A DNA stretch of 64,000 bases from positions 1 through 64,000 of the forward strand of contig JAHDOA010000003.1 in assembly GCA_018435055.1 (NCBI GenBank), given 5' to 3'. The stretch comes from Pelotomaculum sp. (GTDB lineage Bacteria; Bacillota; Desulfotomaculia; Desulfotomaculales; Pelotomaculaceae). The position numbers and the translations under genes are program-made. The notes below the pieces were generated by a model. The model did no database searches. It was not told where the DNA came from and worked only from the letters and a program-made list of their open reading frames with translations. Each line of letters starts with the position of its first letter. The stretch's first letter is position 1. Positions 1 through 30,188 of this stretch are shown one piece after another.

Positions 1-2200
1 CGGCGTCGCTGAAGGTCAGGGCAGTCTGGGAGTCCGGGGCAAGTCCTCCAGCTTTGGTAATGATTGTGGCAAATTCCGCCCTGCTGATTGTCCGGTCAGG
101 CCGGAAGGTGCTGTCTTCGTAGCCGCTGATGATCCCCATTCCCACCAGGCGATCGATGTACTTGTATCCCCAGTGCAGGCTGATGTCCGTAAGTTTGACT
201 TTTGCCGGATTGATCAGAACGGCAAATTGGGTGAAGTGATCCACCTGTACCGAGACTGTGCCGGCATCCGGGTCAACTGCGCCGCCCAGATAGATCCATT
301 GGCCCAGCTTTTCGTTATAGTAGTAGACGCCCAGTTTGCCGGGGTCGGCGACTTTGTCCGGGTCGTATTTAAGCACCACTGTCACCGCGCTGTTAAAGAC
401 CTCGCTGGAGGTAAACTCGTACACGTTGCTGGCAAAAGACATTTTCGGGTCGGGTATCGGATTTGTCACCAAAACAATTTTTATCGTGGCTTCCTGCGAT
501 AGCGCCCCCGCGGGAACGATTATCCCAGCCTGTCCGTCGGCTATGGTAAATGTGCCGCCGCTGACAGGCGCCGTTATATCCGCAGACGGAACCACAGGGG
601 GTTTAGTGCCGCCGCCGCCGGGGCCGCCAGGGCTTGATCCCTGCGGCGTGTAAGCGATAAATTTGGTAAAGTGTTTTGTCCAAATTGCCAGGTCGGGGCT
701 AACGTCAATCTTGCCATCCTCTCCAGCCCCTAGTTCAGCGTCAGCCACCGTCTGGGAGTCGGAGGTTATATTCCTGGTAATTATTACAGGTGCGCTGTTA
801 CCCCTTGTGTAGGCCGCAGATTTTCCGGCCATTCCCGGCAATAGCAGCCTTACTGCTTTACTAAAAGTCAATTCTTTATCGCCAAAGCCTACTTCCACCA
901 CTGCGTTTACGTTGCCGTTGCTTATACTGACAGTGTTATTCGCTATGACTGTCGGAAGCTGAATGGTGCCGTCCCAACCCGCAGGGCCGGTGACTGTCGT
1001 GTCGTCTGGGATCTGCACGTCAACTTCGCCGAGTGAAGTTTGGACCTGTACCTGCACCAGCGGCAAGGTAGCTGTATTATTAACAACAGCAGCCTTCATT
1101 TTCACGCCGCTCACACCTGCGGGCACAGAGATAGCCACCGGCTCGCTGCCAATTATAACCTCCTCGTTATCCTCGGGCTCAGTTGCCACCGGCATGACAA
1201 ACACGGTGGCCTTGTACAGCCATGCGTCAGGGTTGTCTGGTTTGTGAGCGATAAGTTTAGTCTTGCCAGCGTTTACCGCTTTTAGATTTCCATCTTCTAT
1301 TATTGCTATTACTGTGTTGTCTGTTTTCCAGCCCAACACATCCCCGGCCCAGTCATAACCAAGGACTGAAAGTTGCAATGAAAGATGGCCGTCCGCACCT
1401 AAAATTATGTCGTCTACAAATTTTTTCCCGTCTTTAATAAAATAAGTCTCCGAACGCACATAGGCTTTCAACAGGGCAATCTCCCCAGCGTTGCCGGGAT
1501 CAACCTCATCGCTTATCCTATCCTTGGCGGCGATTAGTTTATCAAAGTTCCATCCAATATCGCTTAGCTTAGTACGGAATTTACCATAATCACCTGTTGC
1601 GGCTTCTTTCAAAGCTTCTTTCAGCCACGCTTTTGCGCTATCGCGTATCTGCCCGTAATCCCCGCTGGCGATCGCAATCAAGGCGTCTACATCCTCGGTG
1701 ATTTGTTCAGGCACCAGATCCTTGGCCTTCATCAGGTAGCCATACAGATCATCGACAGTGAAATCGCTGCCAAAAAGGGCCCTGACTGTAGAGGCATGCT
1801 GCGTTTTGAAACCTTGCAAACTCTCTTTCAACGTTGACTTATCAGTTGAATACTGAATATCCGCCAGGTCGCAGAGGAAGCCTTTTAATTCTTGGGCTGC
1901 GTCATCACCCAGGCGAGACTTCACTTCATCTGTCAGTAGACCTTCAAGAATGCCATTCCACGGTCCCTCATCCACAGCTGTGTTCCTTAAATTTATTAAC
2001 CCATCCTTGGCATCTCTCACGGCATCCTTATCGGCTGGATCCAGCTTATCATACACAGCCTGCATCTGGACGACCACATCGCCCATGGTATCAGCCCCGG
2101 CCTGCGCCGGCGCCAGGGTTAAACAAACACCGATAGCAATAAACATAAACATCCACAACCATACGGGGGAACCTGCCCTCCGGGGATCCTTTGTAAACAA
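1..2200 (-). CDS. SLH-domain surface (S-layer-type) protein, C-terminus outside window
   Basis: Exported protein probably held on the cell wall through S-layer homology (SLH) domains. It reads leftward with 733 open codons and no stop before the window edge. I chose the TTG at 2198-2200 because an AGGAGGTG ribosome site (2209-2216) lies 8 nt upstream and the first ~33 residues form a signal peptide (KDPRR, hydrophobic core, APAQA). The middle contains a Big2-like stretch (KAVNAGKTKLIAHK) and a ZU5-like segment near residue 560 (GIIVPAGALSQEATIKI), preceded by a glycine/proline linker. The first SLH repeat starts near residue 667 (LTDISLHWGYKYIDRL) with the typical FRPDRTISRAEFA ending, and a second begins at the edge. 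Identity of the whole protein is unknown; wall anchoring is family knowledge, and further SLH repeats beyond the edge are inferred. Confidence 0.85.
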   Translation of the reverse strand, partial: MFTKDPRRAGSPVWLWMFMFIAIGVCLTLAPAQAGADTMGDVVVQMQAVYDKLDPADKDAVRDAKDGLINLRNTAVDEGPWNGILEGLLTDEVKSRLGDDAAQELKGFLCDLADIQYSTDKSTLKESLQGFKTQHASTVRALFGSDFTVDDLYGYLMKAKDLVPEQITEDVDALIAIASGDYGQIRDSAKAWLKEALKEAATGDYGKFRTKLSDIGWNFDKLIAAKDRISDEVDPGNAGEIALLKAYVRSETYFIKDGKKFVDDIILGADGHLSLQLSVLGYDWAGDVLGWKTDNTVIAIIEDGNLKAVNAGKTKLIAHKPDNPDAWLYKATVFVMPVATEPEDNEEVIIGSEPVAISVPAGVSGVKMKAAVVNNTATLPLVQVQVQTSLGEVDVQIPDDTTVTGPAGWDGTIQLPTVIANNTVSISNGNVNAVVEVGFGDKELTFSKAVRLLLPGMAGKSAAYTRGNSAPVIITRNITSDSQTVADAELGAGEDGKIDVSPDLAIWTKHFTKFIAYTPQGSSPGGPGGGGTKPPVVPSADITAPVSGGTFTIADGQAGIIVPAGALSQEATIKIVLVTNPIPDPKMSFASNVYEFTSSEVFNSAVTVVLKYDPDKVADPGKLGVYYYNEKLGQWIYLGGAVDPDAGTVSVQVDHFTQFAVLINPAKVKLTDISLHWGYKYIDRLVGMGIISGYEDSTFRPDRTISRAEFATIITKAGGLAPDSQTALTFSDA

Positions 2201-2774
2201 AGCGCTTACACCTCCTGTAAATTTTATAATATTCGACAAATGCTAATCACGCGCTATACAATATAACACCTCACCACCTCATACAGCATTGCCTACAGTA
2301 ATGTTGCATAGACTGACACAGCCAAGACCAATATAGAAAACTGGCAATTTTATTTATTATCCAATCCAAGGGTTGCGTGTTTGACTTCCCCTCCCTCCAT
2401 TGCTATTTCTGTAATATTAGCTATTTATATCCCCGGTTCTCGACTACCTTAAGCTTATATAAATCATTTGGGTTCTCCTTAATTCGGCAAAACAGGATAT
2501 TATTGCTCATTCCTTAATGAAATGGCAGTTCATAAAATAAAGGAGTGATTAGGAAATCTCGTTATATTTTACCACAAAATTTCGTTTTATTACAAATTGA
2601 TTATGGTTTATGGACCTAGAATTTTAAAAAACAGCCCGGATCCTAGTAAACAGATCGAAATATGTCGTTGGATTAAAGCAGGGTCTGTGGCGTCCGTTCG
2701 CCAAAAAAGACTGCTGCAGACACGGAGTTGCATACAGTCTCCACCAGCCTGTTTTTAATTTAACGCAATACGGT
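2201..2774. other. 574-nt intergenic region, no gene seen
   Basis: AT-rich spacer between capD and the SLH protein gene, both read leftward. It holds the ribosome site of the SLH gene (2209-2216) and presumably its promoter and a long 5' leader. The open frame at 2624-2848 overlaps the capD 3' end in another frame and shows no ribosome site or domain, so I do not call it. Confidence 0.5.
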
Positions 2775-4622
2775 TTACCCCGCCTGCTCCCTCCTGTAGC
2801 TCCTGAATCTCGGGACGATCGCTCCCAGTGCGTTGAAGATATCCTCAACCGTGCACTGCAACCCTTTACCGGATAGCTTGGTCAACTCGCTCTCCAGGGC
2901 CTCCACCTCGACGAGCGCAGGCCGGGCGGTAAAGATGCGCTTGTGGCTGGTGGCGCTGGAGCCTTCCTCGGCGGTCAAAAGCTCTTCAAAGAGCTTTTCG
3001 CCGGGCCGGATGCCGGTGAACTCCAGCTGGATATCCTTCCCGGGCTCCAGGCCCGACAGCTTGATCATATCGCGGGCCATGTCCACAATCTTCACCGGTT
3101 TTCCCATATCCAGCAAAAACACCTCCCCGCCTTTGGCCATGGATCCGGCCTGGATTACCAGGTGCACGGCTTCGGGTATGGTCATAAAGTAGCGTTTCAT
3201 TTCCGGGTGGGTGACCGTGACCGGGCCGCCTCTGGCGATCTGGCGCTGGAAGACAGGCACTACGCTGCCGTTGCTGCCCAGCACGTTACCGAAACGCACG
3301 GCGGTAAATATGGTATTGCTGACCCTGTTTTCCTGGGTGATGATCAGTTCGGCCAGCCGCTTGGTGGCGCCCATAGCGCTGGAAGGGTTCACCGCTTTGT
3401 CGGTGGAGATCATCACAAATACCCTGGCCCCTGAGCGGCTGGCAGCCAGGGCCGCATTGCGGGTACCGAAAACATTGGTCTTCACTGCTTCGGCGGGGTG
3501 CAGCTCCATCAGGGGCACATGCTTATGCGCTGCGGCGTGGAAGACTACCGCGGGGCGGTGCGTATGAAACAAGCTTTCCACCCTGGGCTTGTCCCGGACA
3601 TCGGCGATTTCCAGCGCCAGGGGAACGCCTGGAAATTTTTCCGTGAGCTCCAGCCAGATACTGTGGATGCTGTTTTCGCAATGATCCAGGAGTACCAGTT
3701 TTTTAGGGCCTACGGCGGCTACCTGGCGGCATAGTTCGGAACCGATGGAGCCGCCGGCGCCGGTAACAAGGACTGTCATTTCATTTAAATAGGCGGCAAT
3801 TTCTTCCAGGTCAACCCGCACCGGCTCCCGCCGCAGCAGGTCCTCCAGCTGTACCGGGCGCAGGTTGCTGACGGACACCTGGCCGTCGATAATCTGATAA
3901 ACGCCGGGTAGTATCTTCAGCTCAGCCTGGGTGCTGCGGCAGATATCCACGATATCCCGGATGACGGACGCCTCCACTGAGGGCATGGCGATAATTACCA
4001 GGTTGATCCTGTGGAGCGCTACCATTTCCGGTATTTGCTCCCGTGTACCCAGCACTGGCAGGCCCAGCACGGCGGCGTTTTTTTTCATGGGATCGTCGTC
4101 AATAAAACCGACGGGCACAAAGCTGCTTTTGTTGCCTTTCAGTTCCCTGGCCACCAACGCTCCGCCGTCACCGGCGCCGATGATCAGGGCCCGCCGGGTT
4201 GGTTTATGCCCGCTGGTTTTCATGCGTTCTACAATGTAACGCCACACCAGCCGGGAACCGCCCATCAACAGGATGGCAAGAGCCCAGTGCATCACTGCGA
4301 TGCTGCGCGGCAGCTGGGTATGAGAAAAGAAAGACATGGCGATGGTCGCCAGGCTGCCGAGAGTGACCGCCTGGATCACCGCGAACAGTTCACCTGTGCT
4401 GGCGTAGGCCCAGACCCGGTTATAGAGTTTAAAGACATAAAAGATAGCGATAAAGGTTATGGTCGCCCATGGGGCAATGCTGATATATGACGACAAGTAC
4501 CGGTCAATGCTGCCGTTTTCGTAAAAACGCAGCCCGAAGGGAATGATCATGGCCAGATTGATGATTACGGCGTCACATAGCATCAAGAGCAGTGTTTTTA
4601 TGCGGGCCTTTAATGTTTTCAA
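2775..4622 (-). CDS. capD: CapD/EpsC-family membrane NDP-sugar 4,6-dehydratase
   Basis: Membrane-anchored nucleoside-diphosphate-sugar epimerase/dehydratase making precursors for exopolysaccharide. Four hydrophobic segments fill the first ~120 residues, followed by a CoA-binding-like Rossmann unit (IIGAGDGGALVAREL, ~res 145) and then the catalytic SDR domain with TGAGGSIGSELCRQ near residue 290. The catalytic motif is SxMxxxK (SSAMGATKR), the Met-for-Tyr form normal for FlaA1/PglF/CapD enzymes. The TTG at 4620-4622 is preferred over the ATG at 4643 because AGGAGG lies only 6 nt before it and would otherwise be inside the coding region. 615 residues, usual for the family. Third gene after wzz and the tyrosine kinase, matching epsA-epsB-epsC of Bacillus subtilis, with a repeated RNA element between it and the kinase. 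Confidence 0.93.
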   Translation of the reverse strand: MKTLKARIKTLLLMLCDAVIINLAMIIPFGLRFYENGSIDRYLSSYISIAPWATITFIAIFYVFKLYNRVWAYASTGELFAVIQAVTLGSLATIAMSFFSHTQLPRSIAVMHWALAILLMGGSRLVWRYIVERMKTSGHKPTRRALIIGAGDGGALVARELKGNKSSFVPVGFIDDDPMKKNAAVLGLPVLGTREQIPEMVALHRINLVIIAMPSVEASVIRDIVDICRSTQAELKILPGVYQIIDGQVSVSNLRPVQLEDLLRREPVRVDLEEIAAYLNEMTVLVTGAGGSIGSELCRQVAAVGPKKLVLLDHCENSIHSIWLELTEKFPGVPLALEIADVRDKPRVESLFHTHRPAVVFHAAAHKHVPLMELHPAEAVKTNVFGTRNAALAASRSGARVFVMISTDKAVNPSSAMGATKRLAELIITQENRVSNTIFTAVRFGNVLGSNGSVVPVFQRQIARGGPVTVTHPEMKRYFMTIPEAVHLVIQAGSMAKGGEVFLLDMGKPVKIVDMARDMIKLSGLEPGKDIQLEFTGIRPGEKLFEELLTAEEGSSATSHKRIFTARPALVEVEALESELTKLSGKGLQCTVEDIFNALGAIVPRFRSYRREQAG

Positions 4623-4724
4623 AGCCGCTCCTCCTGGTGGCAACTGGTTAACAAAGTGCGTGGGTCTATGTGCAGGCGAATGTTTTTGCGCTTATTACAG
4701 GAAAAAAATAAACCCAGCAGGATA

Positions 4725-4810
4725 GCCGGTTGCGTCACTGGCTCAATCAGGTTTCAGACGCCCAAATACAAAACCTGCCTCATCGCCTCATGTGTGAATT
4801 AAATTGTTCG
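4725..4810 (-). promoter_or_regulatory. Repeated structured leader element, copy upstream of capD
   Basis: 86-nt block repeated with the same length at 6688-6773 upstream of wzz. Read on the minus strand it holds a hairpin with stem CAGGTTT/AAACCTG around a conserved TGTATTTGGGCGTCTG loop, and a second block GCCAGTGACGCAACCGGC. In the other copy the stem is CAGATTTT/AAAATCTG, so a G-C pair is replaced by A-T on both sides. That covariation, with the loop unchanged, argues for a functional RNA. It sits between the kinase and capD, the place where B. subtilis carries the EAR antitermination RNA between epsB and epsC. Homology to EAR is not shown. Confidence 0.6.
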
Positions 4811-4934
4811 TTGCCCTTTCTTTGCCAAGAATCCTATATAGATCCTGTGCTAGTATTCGATACCTTTTTTATCAATTCCTTCTTATTGGTGAAAAAAGAA
4901 AAATATTTTGGCGACGCAGCCCTATTTACAGTAA

Positions 4935-5660
4935 TCAGGTAAACCCTGTTTTTTCCTGTACGGACTGGTTTTTAGCGCCGTAGTAGGAGTAATAATTGTA
5001 ATAGCCGCCGCCATGCAACTTGATTATGTTCAGCACTACGCCGATGTTTTTGGCGCCGGCGTTTTGCAGTGTGTTTCTAGCTTCCTGGGCCATTTCAATT
5101 CGTGTTGATCCGGCTCTGAGCACCAGGAGCACACTGTCCACCCGCGGGGCCAGCAAGACCGCGTCGGTGACGGCGATGACCGGCGGCGCGTCTATAAGCG
5201 CCACGTCGTATTGTTCCCCCACCCGGGCCAGCACCTCGTCCATCCGGGCTGAAGCCAGTAGTTCCGAAGGGTTGGGCGGGATCGGGCCGCTGGTGATCAC
5301 GTGCATTCCGTCTACCCGGGTCGTTTGAATAACGTCTTCTACGGCCAGGTCCTGCACCAGCAGGTTGGTTAGCCCCCGGCGGTTGTCCAGTTCAAAATAC
5401 TGGTGCAGCACGGGTTTTCTCAAGTCGCATTCTATAAGCAGGACGCGGCTCCGGGCCTGCGCCATGACTACCGCCAGGTTGGCGCTGACTGTTGATTTGC
5501 CTTCATCGGGGGCAGGGCTGGTAGTAAGGATTATTTTGTTCGCGCCGCCATAGGAGGAAAAACCGATGTTGGTGCGCAGGGTCCTGAACGCTTCCGCAAT
5601 AGCGGATTTGGGCCGGATATGGGAGAAGAGAATCTTTTCTTTTCCGTTTTTTCTAGACAT
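4935..5660 (-). CDS. CpsD/CapB-family bacterial tyrosine kinase (BY-kinase)
   Basis: Cytoplasmic autokinase that works with a Wzz-type membrane activator to control exopolysaccharide assembly. Walker A is TTSPAPDEGKSTVSANLA (~res 45), Walker A' is VLLIECDLRKP (~res 75), and Walker B is VALIDAPP (~res 155). The C-terminus ends in a tyrosine cluster (GGGYYNYYSYYGAKN), the usual autophosphorylation tail. 241 residues is normal for the split Gram-positive form in which the activator is a separate gene. A GGAG ribosome site lies 6 nt before the ATG. It starts 17 nt after wzz ends, so the two are surely co-transcribed. Confidence 0.93.
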   Translation of the reverse strand: MSRKNGKEKILFSHIRPKSAIAEAFRTLRTNIGFSSYGGANKIILTTSPAPDEGKSTVSANLAVVMAQARSRVLLIECDLRKPVLHQYFELDNRRGLTNLLVQDLAVEDVIQTTRVDGMHVITSGPIPPNPSELLASARMDEVLARVGEQYDVALIDAPPVIAVTDAVLLAPRVDSVLLVLRAGSTRIEMAQEARNTLQNAGAKNIGVVLNIIKLHGGGYYNYYSYYGAKNQSVQEKTGFT

Positions 5661-5677
5661 GTTACACTCCGTTTGTT

Positions 5678-6610
5678 TTAATCGCTGCCGTAGTAATAGT
5701 TCCCGGCGCGGCCGTTGGCGTCGGGAATCATCCCCATCACAGGCAGTTCCAGATGTCTTGCTATATCGTCTGTTGTTTTGATTGTGTTGTCCAGGAATTC
5801 CAGCAATAGGGCCAGCGCTACTGAGGCCATCAGCCCCAGCAAAAAGGCTATTGCTATGTTCATTTTTGCGTCGGGCTTGACCCGGACTGCGCTCATGGCC
5901 GGTGATACGACGGCCAGGCTGGTGCTGCCCAGGTCAAAGGAACGGGCGATCTGTGTTCTGGTGATCCCTTCGGACAACAGATTCAGCGTCCCCTGCAGGC
6001 GCTCACGTTCGGCCTGTGACTCAGCGCTGGCCAGTTCCCGCCTCACTGCTTCCATCTGTTCTTCCAGGAATACTACGGAGCGGTTCATTACTTCCTGGTT
6101 CCTTTCTGTGATGGAGGCGATGAATTCCTGGCTCAGGGTATTGGCGATGTCTCTGGCCAGCTGGGGATCTTTGTTGTTGACGGCTATATCTAGCAGATAG
6201 GAGTCTTTGTCGTTGGTAACTTTGACTTGTCCGTTCAGGCCCCGTGGCGTATAGCCGTATTCAGCCAGGCCCATGTGTTCAATCACCCTCAGCATCAAGG
6301 CGTCGCTTTTAAGCTGTCCGATGTAGGTGTTCATGGTCGGCACGGGAATACGCGAGAGGTTGTTGATAATACTGTCGGGGCTGTTGCCCTGACTCGTGGT
6401 CTGCAGCTTCTCCGCCGCCTGGCTGACCAGCAGGACAGTCCTGGCCTCATATACAGGCTGCAATATAAAAAAGCTCACTATGGCGCTGGCCAGTACCGCC
6501 AGCAGGGTAATCGCGCCAATAAAGGCGCGGCGTTTTTTTAGTATTTGTATGTATACGCGCAGGTCAATTTCCTGCTCGTCAGGATCGACCGGGTTATTTT
6601 GGTTGGCCAA
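5678..6610 (-). CDS. Wzz/YveK-type chain-length determinant, kinase activator
   Basis: Membrane protein of the polysaccharide co-polymerase family; partner and activator of the downstream BY-kinase. Residues ~33-53 form the first membrane helix after a charged RVYIQILKKRRAF segment, and residues ~255-275 form the second (NIAIAFLLGLMASVALALLL), preceded by the KPDAK motif typical of Wzz proteins. The ~200 residues between are extracytoplasmic and rich in helix-forming sequence. The short cytoplasmic tail (DNTIKTTDDIARHLELPVMG) is the part that normally touches the kinase. Start is TTG at 6610 with AGGAGG 12 nt upstream. First gene of the operon, behind one copy of the repeated leader element. 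Confidence 0.9.
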   Translation of the reverse strand: MANQNNPVDPDEQEIDLRVYIQILKKRRAFIGAITLLAVLASAIVSFFILQPVYEARTVLLVSQAAEKLQTTSQGNSPDSIINNLSRIPVPTMNTYIGQLKSDALMLRVIEHMGLAEYGYTPRGLNGQVKVTNDKDSYLLDIAVNNKDPQLARDIANTLSQEFIASITERNQEVMNRSVVFLEEQMEAVRRELASAESQAERERLQGTLNLLSEGITRTQIARSFDLGSTSLAVVSPAMSAVRVKPDAKMNIAIAFLLGLMASVALALLLEFLDNTIKTTDDIARHLELPVMGMIPDANGRAGNYYYGSD

Positions 6611-6687
6611 ATGATACTATCCTCCTGCCGGCGCCATGCCAAGATATAAATACCGGATAAAATGAAAATGATAAATCCGGTAGGGTT

Positions 6688-6773
6688 GCCGGTTGCGTCA
6701 CTGGCTCAATCAGATTTTAGACGCCCAAATACAAAATCTGCTTCATTGCCTCAAATGTAGATTAGATTGTCCG
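6688..6773 (-). promoter_or_regulatory. Repeated structured leader element, copy upstream of wzz
   Basis: Same 86-nt block as at 4725-4810, in the same orientation relative to the next gene. The minus-strand hairpin stem is CAGATTTT/AAAATCTG with the same TTGGGCGTC loop. Immediately 3' on the transcript (6653-6682) a further hairpin ACCGGAT/ATCCGGT is possible, before the AGGAGG ribosome site of wzz. Being present both at the head of the operon and again before its third gene suggests a cis-acting transcript element such as an antiterminator; this is inference. Confidence 0.6.
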
Positions 6774-6847
6774 ATTACATAACCAGAATTCGACACTGGT
6801 TTTACTAGTTCCTTCTTTTAAGTGAAAATAATGTTTAAAAAAAAGGA

Positions 6848-6874
6848 GTGTCAGGGGGACGGGGTTGTTGACAC
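6848..6874. repeat. Dispersed palindrome, GTGTCA/TGACAC arms
   Basis: Inverted arms GTGTCA and TGACAC enclose a GGGGGACGGGGTTGT core. A near-identical copy is at 20337-20363. The core resembles that of the GAGACA/TGTCTC palindromes near the RAYT gene, but the arms differ. It lies between the divergent wzz and SLH/propeller genes. Confidence 0.6.
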
Positions 6875-7035
6875 CTTTTAGCATAGACTGGGCTAGTATC
6901 AATAACCCCTTCTATGTAAAATTTTTGGCGTAATGTCATGGATAATGGAGAACAATAGTTTAGCTGGTTGTGAACCATCCGGTCGCTTTTTGCCGTCAAA
7001 TATTAAAAATAACAAAATTAGAAAAGGGGAGAAAA

Positions 7036-8922
7036 ATGAAAAGAACTTTATGTAGTGTGATCCTGGCAGCGACCCTCCTAATCGCCCCGGCCGCAGGTTT
7101 TGCTCAGACACCTTTTGACGACATTCAGTCCAGCCAGGCTCTAACCGATATCGAAGCCGTCTACGAAAAAGGTATCATGCTTGGCACCGCAGACAACAAA
7201 TTCAGCCCGGATGATATTGTTAACCGGGCCCAACTGGCCGTATGCCTGGTGAGAACCTTTGATTTAAATAACCATGATTTACAGTTACCTGTCCCCTCTG
7301 ACCTGTATGATGATGTTGAAAATAATATGTGGTACAGTGCTGCTGCAACGATTGCAGGTTATAATAATATCTTTGACTTCACCGATAGGAAATTCAAACC
7401 CCGGGAAGCTGTTACCAGAGCCGAAGCAGCCAGCGCCATAGCTGACTCTTTTATAGCTAAAAAACTATCTGTTATTACCACAGAGATGTGGCCAAATTAT
7501 CTTGACATTACTAATTTAACCCAAAAACAACAATCTGACATCTGCTTTGTCTTTAACACCAGTATTATGAGATACCCCGGCAACGAGTTCAAACCAGAGC
7601 AAAATATAAGCCGGGCGGAGCTGGCGGCCATTTTAAACCGGACTTTACAAACCCTGGCTGTTGCCGTTCCCGCAGATCAGGAGGAACCTGGAAACCCGCC
7701 TGCCGGCAACCCGGCGCCGGATGTAAATGCAGCTGTCTTTGAGAATCAAGGGACCCTGGCCTTCGTGCGGCAGGGTTTACTCTACACGCTTGATGGCGAA
7801 ACGGGAGAGGTCAAGCAACTGACCGTATCCGGCCGGGCATTGCAGGCGGTCTGGTCAAATGACGGCCAGTGGCTGGCCTTTATCAGCGCCACTGACCAGG
7901 AGGCCGGTACGGGATCGCTCTGGCTGGTACGCCGGGACGGTTCACAGCTTCACCCGGTGCAAGGGCTGCCTGAGCCGGCCGGCCGCAATAGTTTTTACTG
8001 GTCGCCCACCAATAATATGCTGGCAGTAGCTATGCCAGACGGTGTCTGGCTGGTACCGGCGGAAGGTGAACAGGGCCGGCTGGTTCAGTCTGCAGGGACG
8101 TCTCATTTAGCCTGGTCCCCTGACGGTAAGCGCCTGGCTTACAATGCAGCACTGCCCTCGGATGAACCTTACAACCATAGTGATGCAATCTATACCATAG
8201 CTGTTGACGGCGGCCAGCCCGTTGAGCAGTTGGTAACCCCTCAGGCCGGGACGCAGGTTACCGCCTGGTGGCCTGACGGTAAGGGGTTGCTGTATTGGCT
8301 GGCCCCATTGCACTCCGCTTCCATAGCGGCTGACGGAATGGGTCTAATGAGCCTCCGCCTGGGTGAAAGCGAGTCTCAACTACTGGCAAGCGGCCTGGCC
8401 CACCGGGGCTGGCAGTCTCTGACGCCGCAGGGGAACCTGCTCATGGTTACGGGTAACGAGCGTATAGTCTGGGCCAATAAGAGCCTGTCCACTGTAGACC
8501 TGGCGTCCGGTCAGGTCCGGGAGTTTGATAATCCTGAAGGCAGTGTAGCCATCGATCCCTCATTCTCGCCGGACGGCAGCCGGTTTGCTTTTGTTGCCGC
8601 CAGAGACCTGGGGGACGACGTATGGGGCTTTAACAAGCCTGAGGAACTGGCTGACTGGGTGGCAACGCGCACACTCTGGGTCAGCAATGCCGACGGCTCC
8701 GGCGCCCATCCCCTGACGGAGGCCGGGACTGGCGTTTACCAGCCCACCTGGTCCCAAGATGGCGACCACATCCTGTACGTGCGGGACAACGCCCTCTGGA
8801 TAATCAAAACCGGTGGCGGGCAGCCGGAAAAGGTATTGGATTTGTTTTCCCAAGGGGAGGATCTCTTCGGTTTCTACGGTTTTACTTCCTACAGGGATAT
8901 ATTGGCCTGGCATCAGCATTAA
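7036..8922 (+). CDS. Secreted protein with three SLH domains and a TolB-like beta-propeller
   Basis: Exported cell-surface protein. The ATG at 7036 is chosen over an upstream in-frame ATG because AGGGGAG lies 4-5 nt before it and it begins a clear signal peptide (MKRTLCSVILAATLLIAP, cleavage after FA-Q). Three SLH repeats span residues ~26-205, each ending in the canonical acidic/RAE-type motif (NRAQLAVCL, TRAEAASAI, SRAELAAIL). A proline-rich linker follows, then ~390 residues with repeated WSxDG blades (WSNDGQWLAF, WSPDGKRLAY, FSPDGSRFAF, WSQDGDHILY), typical of TolB/WD40-like propellers. 628 residues. SLH domains normally bind pyruvylated wall polymers; the propeller's ligand is unknown. 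Monocistronic, with a terminator at 8970. Confidence 0.9.
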   Translation: MKRTLCSVILAATLLIAPAAGFAQTPFDDIQSSQALTDIEAVYEKGIMLGTADNKFSPDDIVNRAQLAVCLVRTFDLNNHDLQLPVPSDLYDDVENNMWYSAAATIAGYNNIFDFTDRKFKPREAVTRAEAASAIADSFIAKKLSVITTEMWPNYLDITNLTQKQQSDICFVFNTSIMRYPGNEFKPEQNISRAELAAILNRTLQTLAVAVPADQEEPGNPPAGNPAPDVNAAVFENQGTLAFVRQGLLYTLDGETGEVKQLTVSGRALQAVWSNDGQWLAFISATDQEAGTGSLWLVRRDGSQLHPVQGLPEPAGRNSFYWSPTNNMLAVAMPDGVWLVPAEGEQGRLVQSAGTSHLAWSPDGKRLAYNAALPSDEPYNHSDAIYTIAVDGGQPVEQLVTPQAGTQVTAWWPDGKGLLYWLAPLHSASIAADGMGLMSLRLGESESQLLASGLAHRGWQSLTPQGNLLMVTGNERIVWANKSLSTVDLASGQVREFDNPEGSVAIDPSFSPDGSRFAFVAARDLGDDVWGFNKPEELADWVATRTLWVSNADGSGAHPLTEAGTGVYQPTWSQDGDHILYVRDNALWIIKTGGGQPEKVLDLFSQGEDLFGFYGFTSYRDILAWHQH

Positions 8923-26331: not shown

Positions 26332-27249
26332 CTATTCAACCACGGCCCACGCAAAGTGCTGGTGCTCACATGCGTAATATCCGTCCGTGCGTCCCTGGAA
26401 GTAGCGTTCTTGGATGTCGGTTGGGCTCAAGTTCTCATGGAGACGCAAACTAAAACTTGCGAGTTCAGTAGTTATAATGGACGGATTAAAACCCGTTTTC
26501 ATCGGTTCGCCCAGAAACTGCGCTTCCCCCAGCATCCGTTGCACGCGTTTAGCCGCCTTCCCGGGAATAAACGCGTCGGTATCCAGGTAATCGAAAATTA
26601 CCGCGCTGCCAGCAGGGGCGATTTCGGCCATGGCACGCAGCGTGTCGAAGACAGCTTCACGAGTCAAGTAATAGGTGACACCCAGCCAGCTGAAGAGACT
26701 TAAGGACTGTGGGTCGTATGATGACCGTGTTAGTGCCGCCGCCAGGCTCTCCTGCTCGAAATCCACCGGAACAAAGTGCAGATTTGCCGGCTGCTCCCAG
26801 CCCGCTTCAGCGATGCGTTGGCGTTTAAAGGCCTGCGTGGTGGGATGGTCGACCTCGAACACCTGAAGCTTCTCCAACATCTCCGGGCGACGAAACGCGA
26901 AAGTATCAAACCCCGCCCCGAGGATAACGTATTGCCGTACTCCCTGCCCGGCAGCCTGCTCAAGGCTGTCTTCCGTGTACTGTGCGCGGCTGAAGACCAT
27001 GGATGGAGCCGCCAGGGCCCGCATCATCCGCGCTATGGCGGTCGCCTGGTCGGGGAACGAAGCGGCGCGTTCAGGGTCATATAGCTTTAGAGCCTCCGCC
27101 ATATGGTATTCGATAATCGAGCGTGCTTCCTCCGGAACCAGATGATGGGCCAGAAAGTCATTGAAAATCCTGGGTGTATCATGCATTGCATGGTGGGCGC
27201 GATGGTAGGCCATTATCACTGCGGATCGGCTGAACTGTTTTTCTTCCAT
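26332..27249 (-). CDS. Leucine-carboxyl-methyltransferase-type SAM methyltransferase (copy 1)
   Basis: 305-residue class I methyltransferase of the LCM/TIGR00027-like group. SAM-binding motif I is YVILGAGFDTFAFRRPE, followed by VFEVDHPTTQAFKRQRI and the SWLGVTYYLTREAV box; FDYLDTDAF is the acidic motif. ATG 27249 has GGGAGG 7 nt upstream. Substrate unknown. It is one of four tandem copies (26332-30188), of which only this and the next are intact; the DNA around motif I is nearly identical between copies, showing recent duplication. Confidence 0.85.
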   Translation of the reverse strand: MEEKQFSRSAVIMAYHRAHHAMHDTPRIFNDFLAHHLVPEEARSIIEYHMAEALKLYDPERAASFPDQATAIARMMRALAAPSMVFSRAQYTEDSLEQAAGQGVRQYVILGAGFDTFAFRRPEMLEKLQVFEVDHPTTQAFKRQRIAEAGWEQPANLHFVPVDFEQESLAAALTRSSYDPQSLSLFSWLGVTYYLTREAVFDTLRAMAEIAPAGSAVIFDYLDTDAFIPGKAAKRVQRMLGEAQFLGEPMKTGFNPSIITTELASFSLRLHENLSPTDIQERYFQGRTDGYYACEHQHFAWAVVE

Positions 27250-27374
27250 TTGATATCCTCCCGGAATTACTTTATCTCACGCTATTCGACCACTGCCAAC
27301 GTATAGTGAGCATGCTCGCAAGCACCCTTCTTTCCTTATATTAGTTTCTCAAAATAGAGTATATTGACCAGGAG

Positions 27375-28280
27375 CTATTCGACCATCACCCAGGCAAAGT
27401 GCAGATGCTCGCATGCGTGATAACCGTCTTTCCGTTCCCGGAAGTAAAGTTCCTGGATGTCGGTCGGGCTCAAGTCCTCCTGGAGACGTAATCCCAAGCG
27501 GGCCAGGTCGGCGGCGAGGGATGACGGGTCAAAACCCGTTATCATCGGCTCACCCGCGTTCTGCCGCGCGTCCCTTATCGTAATCTTCACGCGTTCAGCC
27601 GCTTTTTCGGGAACAAACGCGTCTGTATCAAGGTAATCGAAAATGATTGCGCTGCCCGCGGGGACAATATTGGCGATATCATGCAGTGTGGTAAAAATAG
27701 CATCGCGGGTTAAGTAATAGGTGACACCCAGCCAGCTAAAGAAGCTAAGTGCCTGCGGGTTATACGATGAGCGTGTTAGTACCTCTGCCAGGCTCTCCTG
27801 CTCAAAATCCACGGGCACAAAGTGAAGCTGTGCCGGCAGTTTCCAGCCAGCATCAGCGATGCGTTGGCGTTTAAAGGCCTGCGTGACGGGATGGTCGACC
27901 TCGAACACCTGAAGCTTCTCCAACATCTCCGGTCGGCGAAACGCAAAGGTATCAAAACCCGCCCCAAGGATCACGTACTGCCGCACTCCCTGCCCAACAG
28001 CCTTGTCGAGAATTTCTTCCGAGTACCGCGAACGGCTAAGGGTCATGGATGGGCCTGGTGTTATGGTTTGCATATGCCGCGCTATCGCAGCCGCCCGGTC
28101 AGGGAGCGACACGGCGCTGAGAATTTGCGACCAGGCGTTTTCAAAGAATAAGCGTTCATCCTCCGTAAACAAATGACAGGCCAGAGAGTCGTCAAATATC
28201 TTGGGGTTATCGTGCATGGCATGGTACGCGCGATAGTAAGCCATTAACGTTGCAGTGAAGCTGGCTCTCTTCTCATCCAT
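27375..28280 (-). CDS. Leucine-carboxyl-methyltransferase-type SAM methyltransferase (copy 2)
   Basis: Paralogue of the neighbouring copy 1 with the same motifs (YVILGAGFDTFAFRRPE, VFEVDHPVTQAFKRQRI, SWLGVTYYLTRDAI, DYLDTDAFVPEKA). The ATG at 28280 is preferred: GAGGTG lies 6 nt before it, whereas the GTG at 28289 is part of that site. 301 residues. The N-terminal half differs more from copy 1 than the motif I region does, as expected if conversion or selection has acted on the core. Probably its own transcription unit. Confidence 0.85.
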   Translation of the reverse strand: MDEKRASFTATLMAYYRAYHAMHDNPKIFDDSLACHLFTEDERLFFENAWSQILSAVSLPDRAAAIARHMQTITPGPSMTLSRSRYSEEILDKAVGQGVRQYVILGAGFDTFAFRRPEMLEKLQVFEVDHPVTQAFKRQRIADAGWKLPAQLHFVPVDFEQESLAEVLTRSSYNPQALSFFSWLGVTYYLTRDAIFTTLHDIANIVPAGSAIIFDYLDTDAFVPEKAAERVKITIRDARQNAGEPMITGFDPSSLAADLARLGLRLQEDLSPTDIQELYFRERKDGYHACEHLHFAWVMVE

Positions 28281-28337
28281 ATTAGGCACCTCTTCTTTTC
28301 TTTTATTTGTTTGATTAACTAGTATATAGGCTAATAG

Positions 28338-28711
28338 CTATTCGACCACGGCCCTGGCAAAGTGCAAATGCTCGCATGCGTGATAGCCGTCCGTGCGCCC
28401 CTTGAAATAGCGTTCTTCGATTTCGGTCGGGCTTAAATTCTCTTGGAGATAAAAGCCCAGACCCGCCAAGTCGGCAGCGATGGTTGGCGGTTAAAAACCC
28501 GTTATCATCGGCTCACCCGCTATCTGCCGCGCGTCCCTTATCATTATTTTCACGCGTTTAGCCGCTTTTTCGGGAACAAACGCGTCGTTATCCAGGTAAT
28601 CGAAGATAACCGTGCTTCCAGATGGAGTAATTTCGGCGATAGAACGCAGCGTGGCGAATACAGCTTCGCTAGTCAAGTAATAGGTGACACCCAGCCAGCT
28701 AAAGTAGCTTG
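28338..28711 (-). pseudogene. Methyltransferase copy 3, C-terminal half only
   Basis: Begins in mid-protein at YFSWLGVTYYLTSEAVFATL, continues DYLDNDAFVPEKAAKRVKIM, meets an in-frame TAA where the other copies have Asp (ITGF*), and then continues in the same frame to the family's normal ending CEHLHFARAVVE. It is fused at its 5' side to an alpha/beta-hydrolase fragment. It is complementary to the N-terminal half at 29690-30188; the two together would make one methyltransferase lacking only ~22 residues. Confidence 0.85.
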
Positions 28712-28882
28712 GAACTGATCGTAACATATCGTTTTAAACCTGCCGGCAAAGGTGTCTGCCTGGTAGTCCCAGATGCGAAGGTCGGTGAAGCCGCCGTGAA
28801 GTAAAACCAGTGGCTCCCCTTCTCCTTTTATGGAATAAAATAAACTGGTGTCATTTACCTGGAGATAATTCTTAATATCCAA
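28712..28882 (-). pseudogene. Alpha/beta-hydrolase N-terminal fragment
   Basis: ATG 28882 opens MDIKNYLQVNDTSLFYSIKG, EGEPLVLLHGGFTDLRIWDY and ends FKTICYD, the first ~55 residues of an alpha/beta hydrolase up to the oxyanion HGG region and before the nucleophile. It is then abruptly joined to methyltransferase copy 3 in a different frame. The catalytic Ser, Asp and His are all missing. Confidence 0.85.
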
Positions 28883-28959
28883 ATTTCCTTTACTCCGTAC
28901 TTAACCAACTGAAAACCTGCCCTAAAAAATTCACACCTGTCTATCCAGTCGAAAAAACA

Positions 28960-28985
28960 ACGACCACCCCGACTTGGGCGGCCGT
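28960..28985 (-). terminator. Terminator after the toxin-antitoxin pair
   Basis: 26-nt element with GGCCGCCC/GGGGTGG-type arms around AAGT on the minus strand, followed by TTGTTTTTTC. A nearly identical 26-nt copy is at 30314-30339. Confidence 0.65.
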
Positions 28986-29063
28986 CTCTAAAATACTATC
29001 TAAAGAATATTTCAATTAATTTGGCATATTACTCTTTTGGAATAAACCCGGCGGTAAAACATT

Positions 29064-29336
29064 TTATGCTTTTCGTAAAATATCATGGTGTCCGATAGCG
29101 TGAAGTATTAGCGTGTCACTGTTTTGCTCAAAAATAATCCTAATATCTTTGTTAACATAAGCCTCCCAAAACCCTGTGCCTTTGATCCGGTGAATCTTTA
29201 GTGAATTATGTTTTGGATTGACAGCAATAAAACTTAGGGCTTTCCTGGCCTGTTTTCGTTCGGCGGGTGATAATTTCCGATAATCATTATTAAAAGGGTC
29301 AGTTAGAATTATCGCCGGCATTGTTTTCTTCCCCAA
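29064..29336 (-). CDS. RelE/ParE-superfamily toxin
   Basis: 90-residue predicted toxin, probably a ribosome-dependent mRNA interferase. The sequence has the compact RelE/ParE layout: FNNDYRKLSPAERKQARKAL, the FIAVNPKHNSLKIHRIKGT strand region, FWEAYVNKDIRIIFEQ, and the terminal LILHAIGHHDIL. It overlaps the end of the antitoxin gene by 38 nt, so the pair is translationally coupled. It lies within the ~1-kb block that splits a methyltransferase gene. Target and activity are inferred. Confidence 0.8.
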   Translation of the reverse strand: MGKKTMPAIILTDPFNNDYRKLSPAERKQARKALSFIAVNPKHNSLKIHRIKGTGFWEAYVNKDIRIIFEQNSDTLILHAIGHHDILRKA

Positions 29337-29601
29337 GAAACTCTAATAATTCGTCGGCATTGGAAAATGTTTTATATTGGCCTTCTTTTAAGGCGTCAGC
29401 GCTTTGCTTCATTTTTTCCTGCCAAACCTCAGACCAAAAATACTCCTGGCTTTTATCGTGCCATGCAACAGGTTTGATGAAAATTCCCCCATCCCGTTCC
29501 TCCAAGGCGATATAATCTCCTTCCCGTATATTCAGTTTTTTAGCAATCTGAGACAGACTGATAAGCATACGTTTTTGTACCTGCTGAATAATCTCCGGCA
29601 T
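29299..29601 (-). CDS. AbrB/MazE-family antitoxin
   Basis: 100-residue protein. Residues ~8-45 form a swapped-hairpin AbrB domain (RMLISLSQIAKKLNIREGDY, IALEERDGGIFIKP), and the C-terminal half is acidic and helical (YKTFSNADELLEFLGEE), the usual toxin-neutralising segment. It precedes and overlaps the RelE-like toxin gene. Antitoxins of this type normally repress their own promoter. Ribosome site GGGAGCG lies ~6 nt before ATG 29601. Confidence 0.82.
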   Translation of the reverse strand: MPEIIQQVQKRMLISLSQIAKKLNIREGDYIALEERDGGIFIKPVAWHDKSQEYFWSEVWQEKMKQSADALKEGQYKTFSNADELLEFLGEENNAGDNSN

Positions 29602-29689
29602 CTATGTCGCTCCCTTAACTGATAAGCTGTAATTACAGTTTATCTGCATTTTAAGATGTTGTCAATGATACCACCTGTTAAATCCACCG

Positions 29690-30188
29690 GAACGAAGTGT
29701 AATTGCGCCGCCTGCTCCCAGCTCACATCAGCGAGGCGTTGATGTTTTATGTTTTGCGTGGCGGGATGGTCGACCTCAAATACCCGGAGCTTCTCCAACA
29801 TCTCCGGGCGGCGAAACGCGAAAGTATCCATCCCCGCCCCGAGGATCACGTACTGCCGCACGCCCAGCCCGACAGCTTTTTCAAGACTGTCTTCCGAGTA
29901 CCTTGAACGGGCAAGAATGAGAGATGGCGCCGCCAATGCCTCCCGCATCATCCACTTTATGGCTGTCGCCTGGTCAGGGCAAGACGCGGCGCGTGCGGAG
30001 TCGAATAACTTGAGGCTTTCCGCTATCTGATATTCGATGCTTGCCCGCTCCTCCTCCGTTACCAAACGATGGGCCAGAAAGTCATCAAATATTTTTGGAG
30101 TTTCATGCATAACATGGTACGCACGATAGTAAGCCATTAACGTCCTTAATCCTGGTTGGACCCGGTCTGAACGGGTGCCCCTATCCAC
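29690..30188 (-). pseudogene. Methyltransferase copy 4, N-terminal half only
   Basis: From GTG 30188 the frame encodes the LCM-type methyltransferase start (LMAYYRAYHVMHETPKIFDD) through motif I (YVILGAGMDTFAFRRPEMLE) to LHFVPVD, where similarity stops and a short unrelated tail (LTGGIIDNILKCR) ends the frame at 29640. Its upstream side joins an SDR fragment. Together with copy 3 it looks like one gene split by an insertion of about 970 bp. Confidence 0.85.

Follow-up and report, generated by a model that had tools for sequence, protein, structure and literature searches.

An element repeated ahead of two exopolysaccharide (EPS) genes in a 64,000-nucleotide stretch of a Pelotomaculum sp. genome, referred to here as the window, raises the question of which RNA it encodes and how it could act twice on one locus. 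The EPS locus in the window comprises three genes only, in the order wzz, tyrosine kinase and dehydratase, and all functional features described below lie on the same strand:

5678–6610, minus strand: wzz, an epsA-type chain-length determinant (PF02706, 4.2e-13) with a TTG start
4935–5660, minus strand: BY-type tyrosine kinase, epsB-type (P-loop families AAA_31/CbiA, Walker motifs, tyrosine-rich tail)
2775–4622, minus strand: pglF/capD/epsC-type nucleotide-sugar 4,6-dehydratase (PF02719, 3.4e-117; CoA_binding_3) with a TTG start at 4622

An AGGAGG sequence (6626–6621) precedes the TTG start of wzz, and the kinase gene adjoins wzz, as it does in relatives. The trio is flanked by two S-layer-homology open reading frames, at 2–2239 (minus strand) and 6970–8922 (plus strand), the latter assigned by a Pfam match and the former read by eye.

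A repeat search recovers both copies of the element far above chance at the positions given in the preliminary description. The repeat is, however, larger than the 86 nt described there, extending over 117 nt at 82% identity (4694–4810 and 6657–6773). A second repeat block of 75% identity is located upstream (4852–4895 and 6785–6828) and holds a promoter-like box.

Judged from sequence and pairing, both copies are c-di-GMP-II riboswitch aptamers (RF01786), with c-di-GMP as the predicted ligand. This bears out what the preliminary description had offered as an alternative, namely that the locus carries two copies of a second-messenger riboswitch:

6678–6762, minus strand: copy 2, c-di-GMP-II aptamer upstream of wzz (RF01786, 54.0 bits, E 1.4e-10)
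4725–4789, minus strand: copy 1, c-di-GMP-II aptamer core between the kinase gene and pglF (RF01786, 49.3 bits, E 3e-9)

With the family cut-off at 53.5 bits, copy 2 lies just over and copy 1 under the threshold; copy 1, whose match spans model positions 11–74, is counted as RF01786 by its 82% identity to copy 2 and its E of 3e-9. No other RNA family is matched by cmscan at E up to 1 between 4600 and 6900, and a whole-genome search yields no third convincing RF01786 match. A weak hit on contig C23 (17.5 bits, E 1) is discounted as a chance match, since hits at that threshold turn up in three control genomes as well.

To compare the copies with further homologues, we aligned them with 25 relatives using MAFFT. 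Over these 27 aptamers the columns U36, G37, G38, C40, A69, A70, C71 and G73 are invariant and present in both window copies. In the crystal structure of the class II aptamer, the AACCG motif and the UGG loop provide the ligand contacts. The P2 helices and the loop-to-3′ pseudoknot pair in both copies, and the overall structure of the alignment stands above slid controls.

The preliminary description had read stem covariation from the change of CAGGTTT/AAACCTG to CAGATTTT/AAAATCTG with a fixed loop. Of this, a single exchange (G-C to A-U) is truly compensatory and the rest is a U-A/U-G wobble, which makes the evidence of covariation from just two copies weak; the loop does not vary because it pairs in the pseudoknot. 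The relatives do supply the covariation: the pseudoknot is 98.5% paired over the 27 aptamers, with two-sided changes at four of its five pairs, and the window lineage has GCGUC/GACGC in place of the GCAC/GUGC of the consensus, a covariation invisible from two copies alone. Since the alignment misregisters stem P2 (51% paired), the pseudoknot and a short GGC/GCC helix are the sole covariation evidence used here. The P1 helix has about 3 bp in copy 2 (UUG/CAA) and is poorly formed in copy 1, with at most about 1 bp in the standard register. The near absence of P1, together with the score under the Rfam cut-off, suggests that the affinity of copy 1 may be reduced.

The window genome (G000) encodes ten GGDEF domains, five c-di-GMP-I riboswitches and one sigH gene. 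Two c-di-GMP-I riboswitches on the same strand, with about 135 nt between them (G000:C6:122359-122446 and 122582-122669), form a probable tandem c-di-GMP-I leader.

The sequences at the 3′ ends of the two aptamers define different candidate expression platforms:

4701–4729, minus strand: intrinsic terminator of copy 1, CCGGC-UAUCCU-GCUGG followed by the U tract GUUUAUUUUUUUC (terminator-like, -8.5 kcal/mol)
6652–6681, minus strand: diverged platform of copy 2, hairpin ACCGGAU...AUCCGGU with a poor U tract (-8.8 kcal/mol)
6692–6677, minus strand: weaker CCGG/CCGG hairpin overlapping the copy 2 aptamer (-5.7 kcal/mol)

In copy 1, the 5′ arm of the terminator is the aptamer's own conserved CCGGC, and in the ligand-free fold CCGG pairs downstream with a probability of about 0.93. 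The terminator arm likewise starts inside the aptamer's AACCGG in the leaders of most relatives. In C. difficile, class II c-di-GMP riboswitches work as ON switches (PMC11477304, PMC6366702). On these three grounds, copy 1 most likely switches transcription ON. In the absence of ligand, CCGGC would pair with the downstream GCUGG and terminate transcription before pglF; with c-di-GMP bound, CCGGC would be kept in the aptamer and RNA polymerase would read through to pglF.

For copy 2, fold prediction gives no clear ON terminator. Its CCGG pairs upstream in the ligand-free fold, and the ACCGGAU/AUCCGGU hairpin, which does not overlap the aptamer, forms in either state. Given this weakened ON-type terminator and the additional hairpin, the direction or strength of control by copy 2 is uncertain. 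Copy 2 would control entry into wzz and the kinase gene, and transcripts, which we infer to read through both genes as single molecules, would still face copy 1. Any transcript that starts upstream of wzz has to cross copy 1, which would place pglF behind two gates. The pair thus probably controls two consecutive stages in the expression of the sugar-coat genes. Taken as a whole, we consider it likely that the locus carries a pair of c-di-GMP-II riboswitches, both preceded by a sigma-H-type promoter-like box of their own, with copy 1 acting as an ON switch, copy 2 governing entry into wzz, and pglF under double control.

A serious competitor, with somewhat less than an even chance in our estimate, is that copy 2 has decayed or switched its logic, being constitutive, leaky or an OFF switch through the ACCGGAU/AUCCGGU hairpin, and that only copy 1 works as an ON switch. 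The weak first hairpin and the poor U tract of copy 2 are compatible with this, as are two relatives from the window's own genus. G004 (Desulfotomaculaceae bacterium STF2_125, whose contig provides locus L040) has the same hairpin as copy 2, there followed by U7, and retains only the 3′ half of the aptamer behind the box; G005 has the box and wzz with no aptamer between them:

L040, about 5780–5905: half-replaced aptamer of G004
L054, about 1425–1500: site without aptamer behind the same box in G005

Control by c-di-GMP-II is therefore dispensable. On the other hand, of the two aptamers copy 2 scores higher (54.0) and has lost none of the invariant residues, which speaks for selection.

The positions of both aptamers recur in relatives. 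An aptamer precedes wzz in the window (copy 2), in G024 and at both wzz copies of G010, the last two genomes representing two other genera of the window's family. It lies between the kinase gene and the next gene in the window (copy 1, before pglF) and in four genomes of two other families (G027, G099, G102 and G103), in which a sugar transferase gene follows (PF02397, checked in G027 and G103). In 17 further loci around wzz relatives, cmscan detects no c-di-GMP-II within a flank of about 1.5 kb; the aptamers of those four genomes sit just past that flank, so the absence in the remaining wzz relatives holds for the flank searched. Within the genus or family, the switch is present, duplicated, half-lost or absent behind one conserved box, providing natural material on riboswitch gain and loss.

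Each copy is preceded by a box that resembles a sigma-H-type promoter and is here treated as a putative one:

6788–6815, minus strand: sigma-H-type promoter-like box GAAGGAACT-N12-GTCGAAT upstream of copy 2
4855–4882, minus strand: sigma-H-type promoter-like box GAAGGAATT-N12-ATCGAAT upstream of copy 1

The published sigma-H consensus is (A/G)(A/C)AGG(A/G)(A/T)3-N11-12-(A/G)(A/G)(A/C)GAA(A/T) (PMC4754846). The boxes deviate from it at one or two positions, with a C in the -35 triplet of copy 2 and a T at -10 position 2 in both; this T also occurs in some Listeria sigma-H promoters. A consensus-like box is found within 200 nt upstream in 7 of 30 aptamer loci, two of the seven being the window copies that prompted the pattern, versus one match in 172 kb elsewhere. 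The same pattern applied to 25 later loci gives 3, versus 4 in 230 kb (p 2e-4, kinship of loci ignored). With a slightly different pattern, fitted post hoc once all loci were known and again ignoring kinship, a box stands ahead of 13 aptamers out of 55, versus 3 matches in about 400 kb elsewhere, and the 13 include eight of the nine aptamers adjoining wzz–kinase pairs.

The motif GAAGGA-N14-TNTCGAAT has exactly three matches in the window genome, all in an EPS context. Two are the boxes before the window aptamers, and the third (G000:C18:19707-19734; loci L066 and L095) comes right after a cpsB-type phosphatase gene, in the place that wzz occupies in relatives. Downstream of it lies a sugar-gene cluster without wzz. 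With cpsB, the promoter-like box and the sugar genes that follow remaining on contig C18, the genome's EPS locus appears to have become divided. The wzz–kinase–pglF block seems, in this reconstructed history, to have departed the main EPS cluster for its present site between the S-layer-homology genes. The promoter–aptamer cassette may have been duplicated directly, or through a stage like that of G010 with two wzz–kinase pairs, one of which was then lost.

In B. subtilis, the EAR element lies between epsB and epsC (PMC10653937), and copy 1, between an epsB-type kinase gene and an epsC/PglF-type dehydratase gene, does occupy this place, as the preliminary description had pointed out. A clostridial counterpart of EAR, the first option given there, is nevertheless very improbable if taken as one by descent, a ligand-free RNA making RNA polymerase resist termination across a long eps operon. 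The Rfam scan suggested there for EAR and c-di-GMP classes matches c-di-GMP-II, a ligand-binding family, strongly, and EAR not at all down to E 1 within 4600–6900; in addition, copy 2 before wzz is outside the EAR slot and the locus is just three genes long. The likeness to the EAR of Bacillales is one of position, for copy 1 only, and probably of outcome, in allowing transcription to continue into sugar genes. Sequence and structure are unrelated, and the window elements are predicted to couple the sensing of a small molecule to a terminator close by, instead of acting by long-range antitermination. That a mobile repeat landed by chance ahead of two genes, as two similar copies in one locus might suggest, is hardly credible, since the genome has just two copies, both before EPS genes, relatives bear the aptamer at the same genes, and no transposase or terminal repeats are seen at the copies.

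The closest known counterparts of the two predicted riboswitches are c-di-GMP-II switches such as Cdi-2-4 of C. difficile pilA1, with which they share the aptamer architecture, the invariant residues, the pseudoknot and, by prediction, the control of surface and biofilm genes; the ON-type terminator over the aptamer 3′ end is shared by copy 1. Unlike Cdi-2-4, the window copies would act on the EPS genes wzz and pglF, lie two genes apart and have their own promoter-like boxes; copy 1 appears to lack a proper P1 and copy 2 has a diverged platform. Tandem c-di-GMP-II riboswitches, of which 59 doublets and 9 triplets are reported (PMC9481103), also place two same-class aptamers on the same genes, but within one leader, whereas the window copies are 1.96 kb apart and would gate successive segments. 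Adjacent c-di-GMP-II doublets also occur among the relatives (loci L020 and L029, G007:C85:6883-7191, and G003:C116:3238-3401).

The sensor class is known and the window copies are new members of it; the layout is new in its predicted serial gating, conserved box and recurrent use of the EAR slot. The open-access literature that we searched holds no report of c-di-GMP-II in such a layout with exopolysaccharide, wzz or sigma-H. If correct, our reading provides a direct, RNA-based link from c-di-GMP to the assembly of exopolysaccharide in uncultured Desulfotomaculum relatives, and suggests that the junction from chain-length and kinase genes to sugar genes is a decision point controlled by different RNAs. 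A broader and more tentative generalization, which may well prove wrong, is that, across this class of bacteria, the sigma-H-type box and the c-di-GMP-II aptamer together form a recurrent AND gate for a developmental sigma factor and c-di-GMP, and that the post-kinase slot is a recurrent eps checkpoint filled by unrelated RNAs, EAR in Bacillales and c-di-GMP-II here.

Elsewhere in the window, three related methyltransferase-like open reading frames, read by eye, stand in tandem at 26332–30188; the third (29640–30188) is shorter and perhaps truncated.
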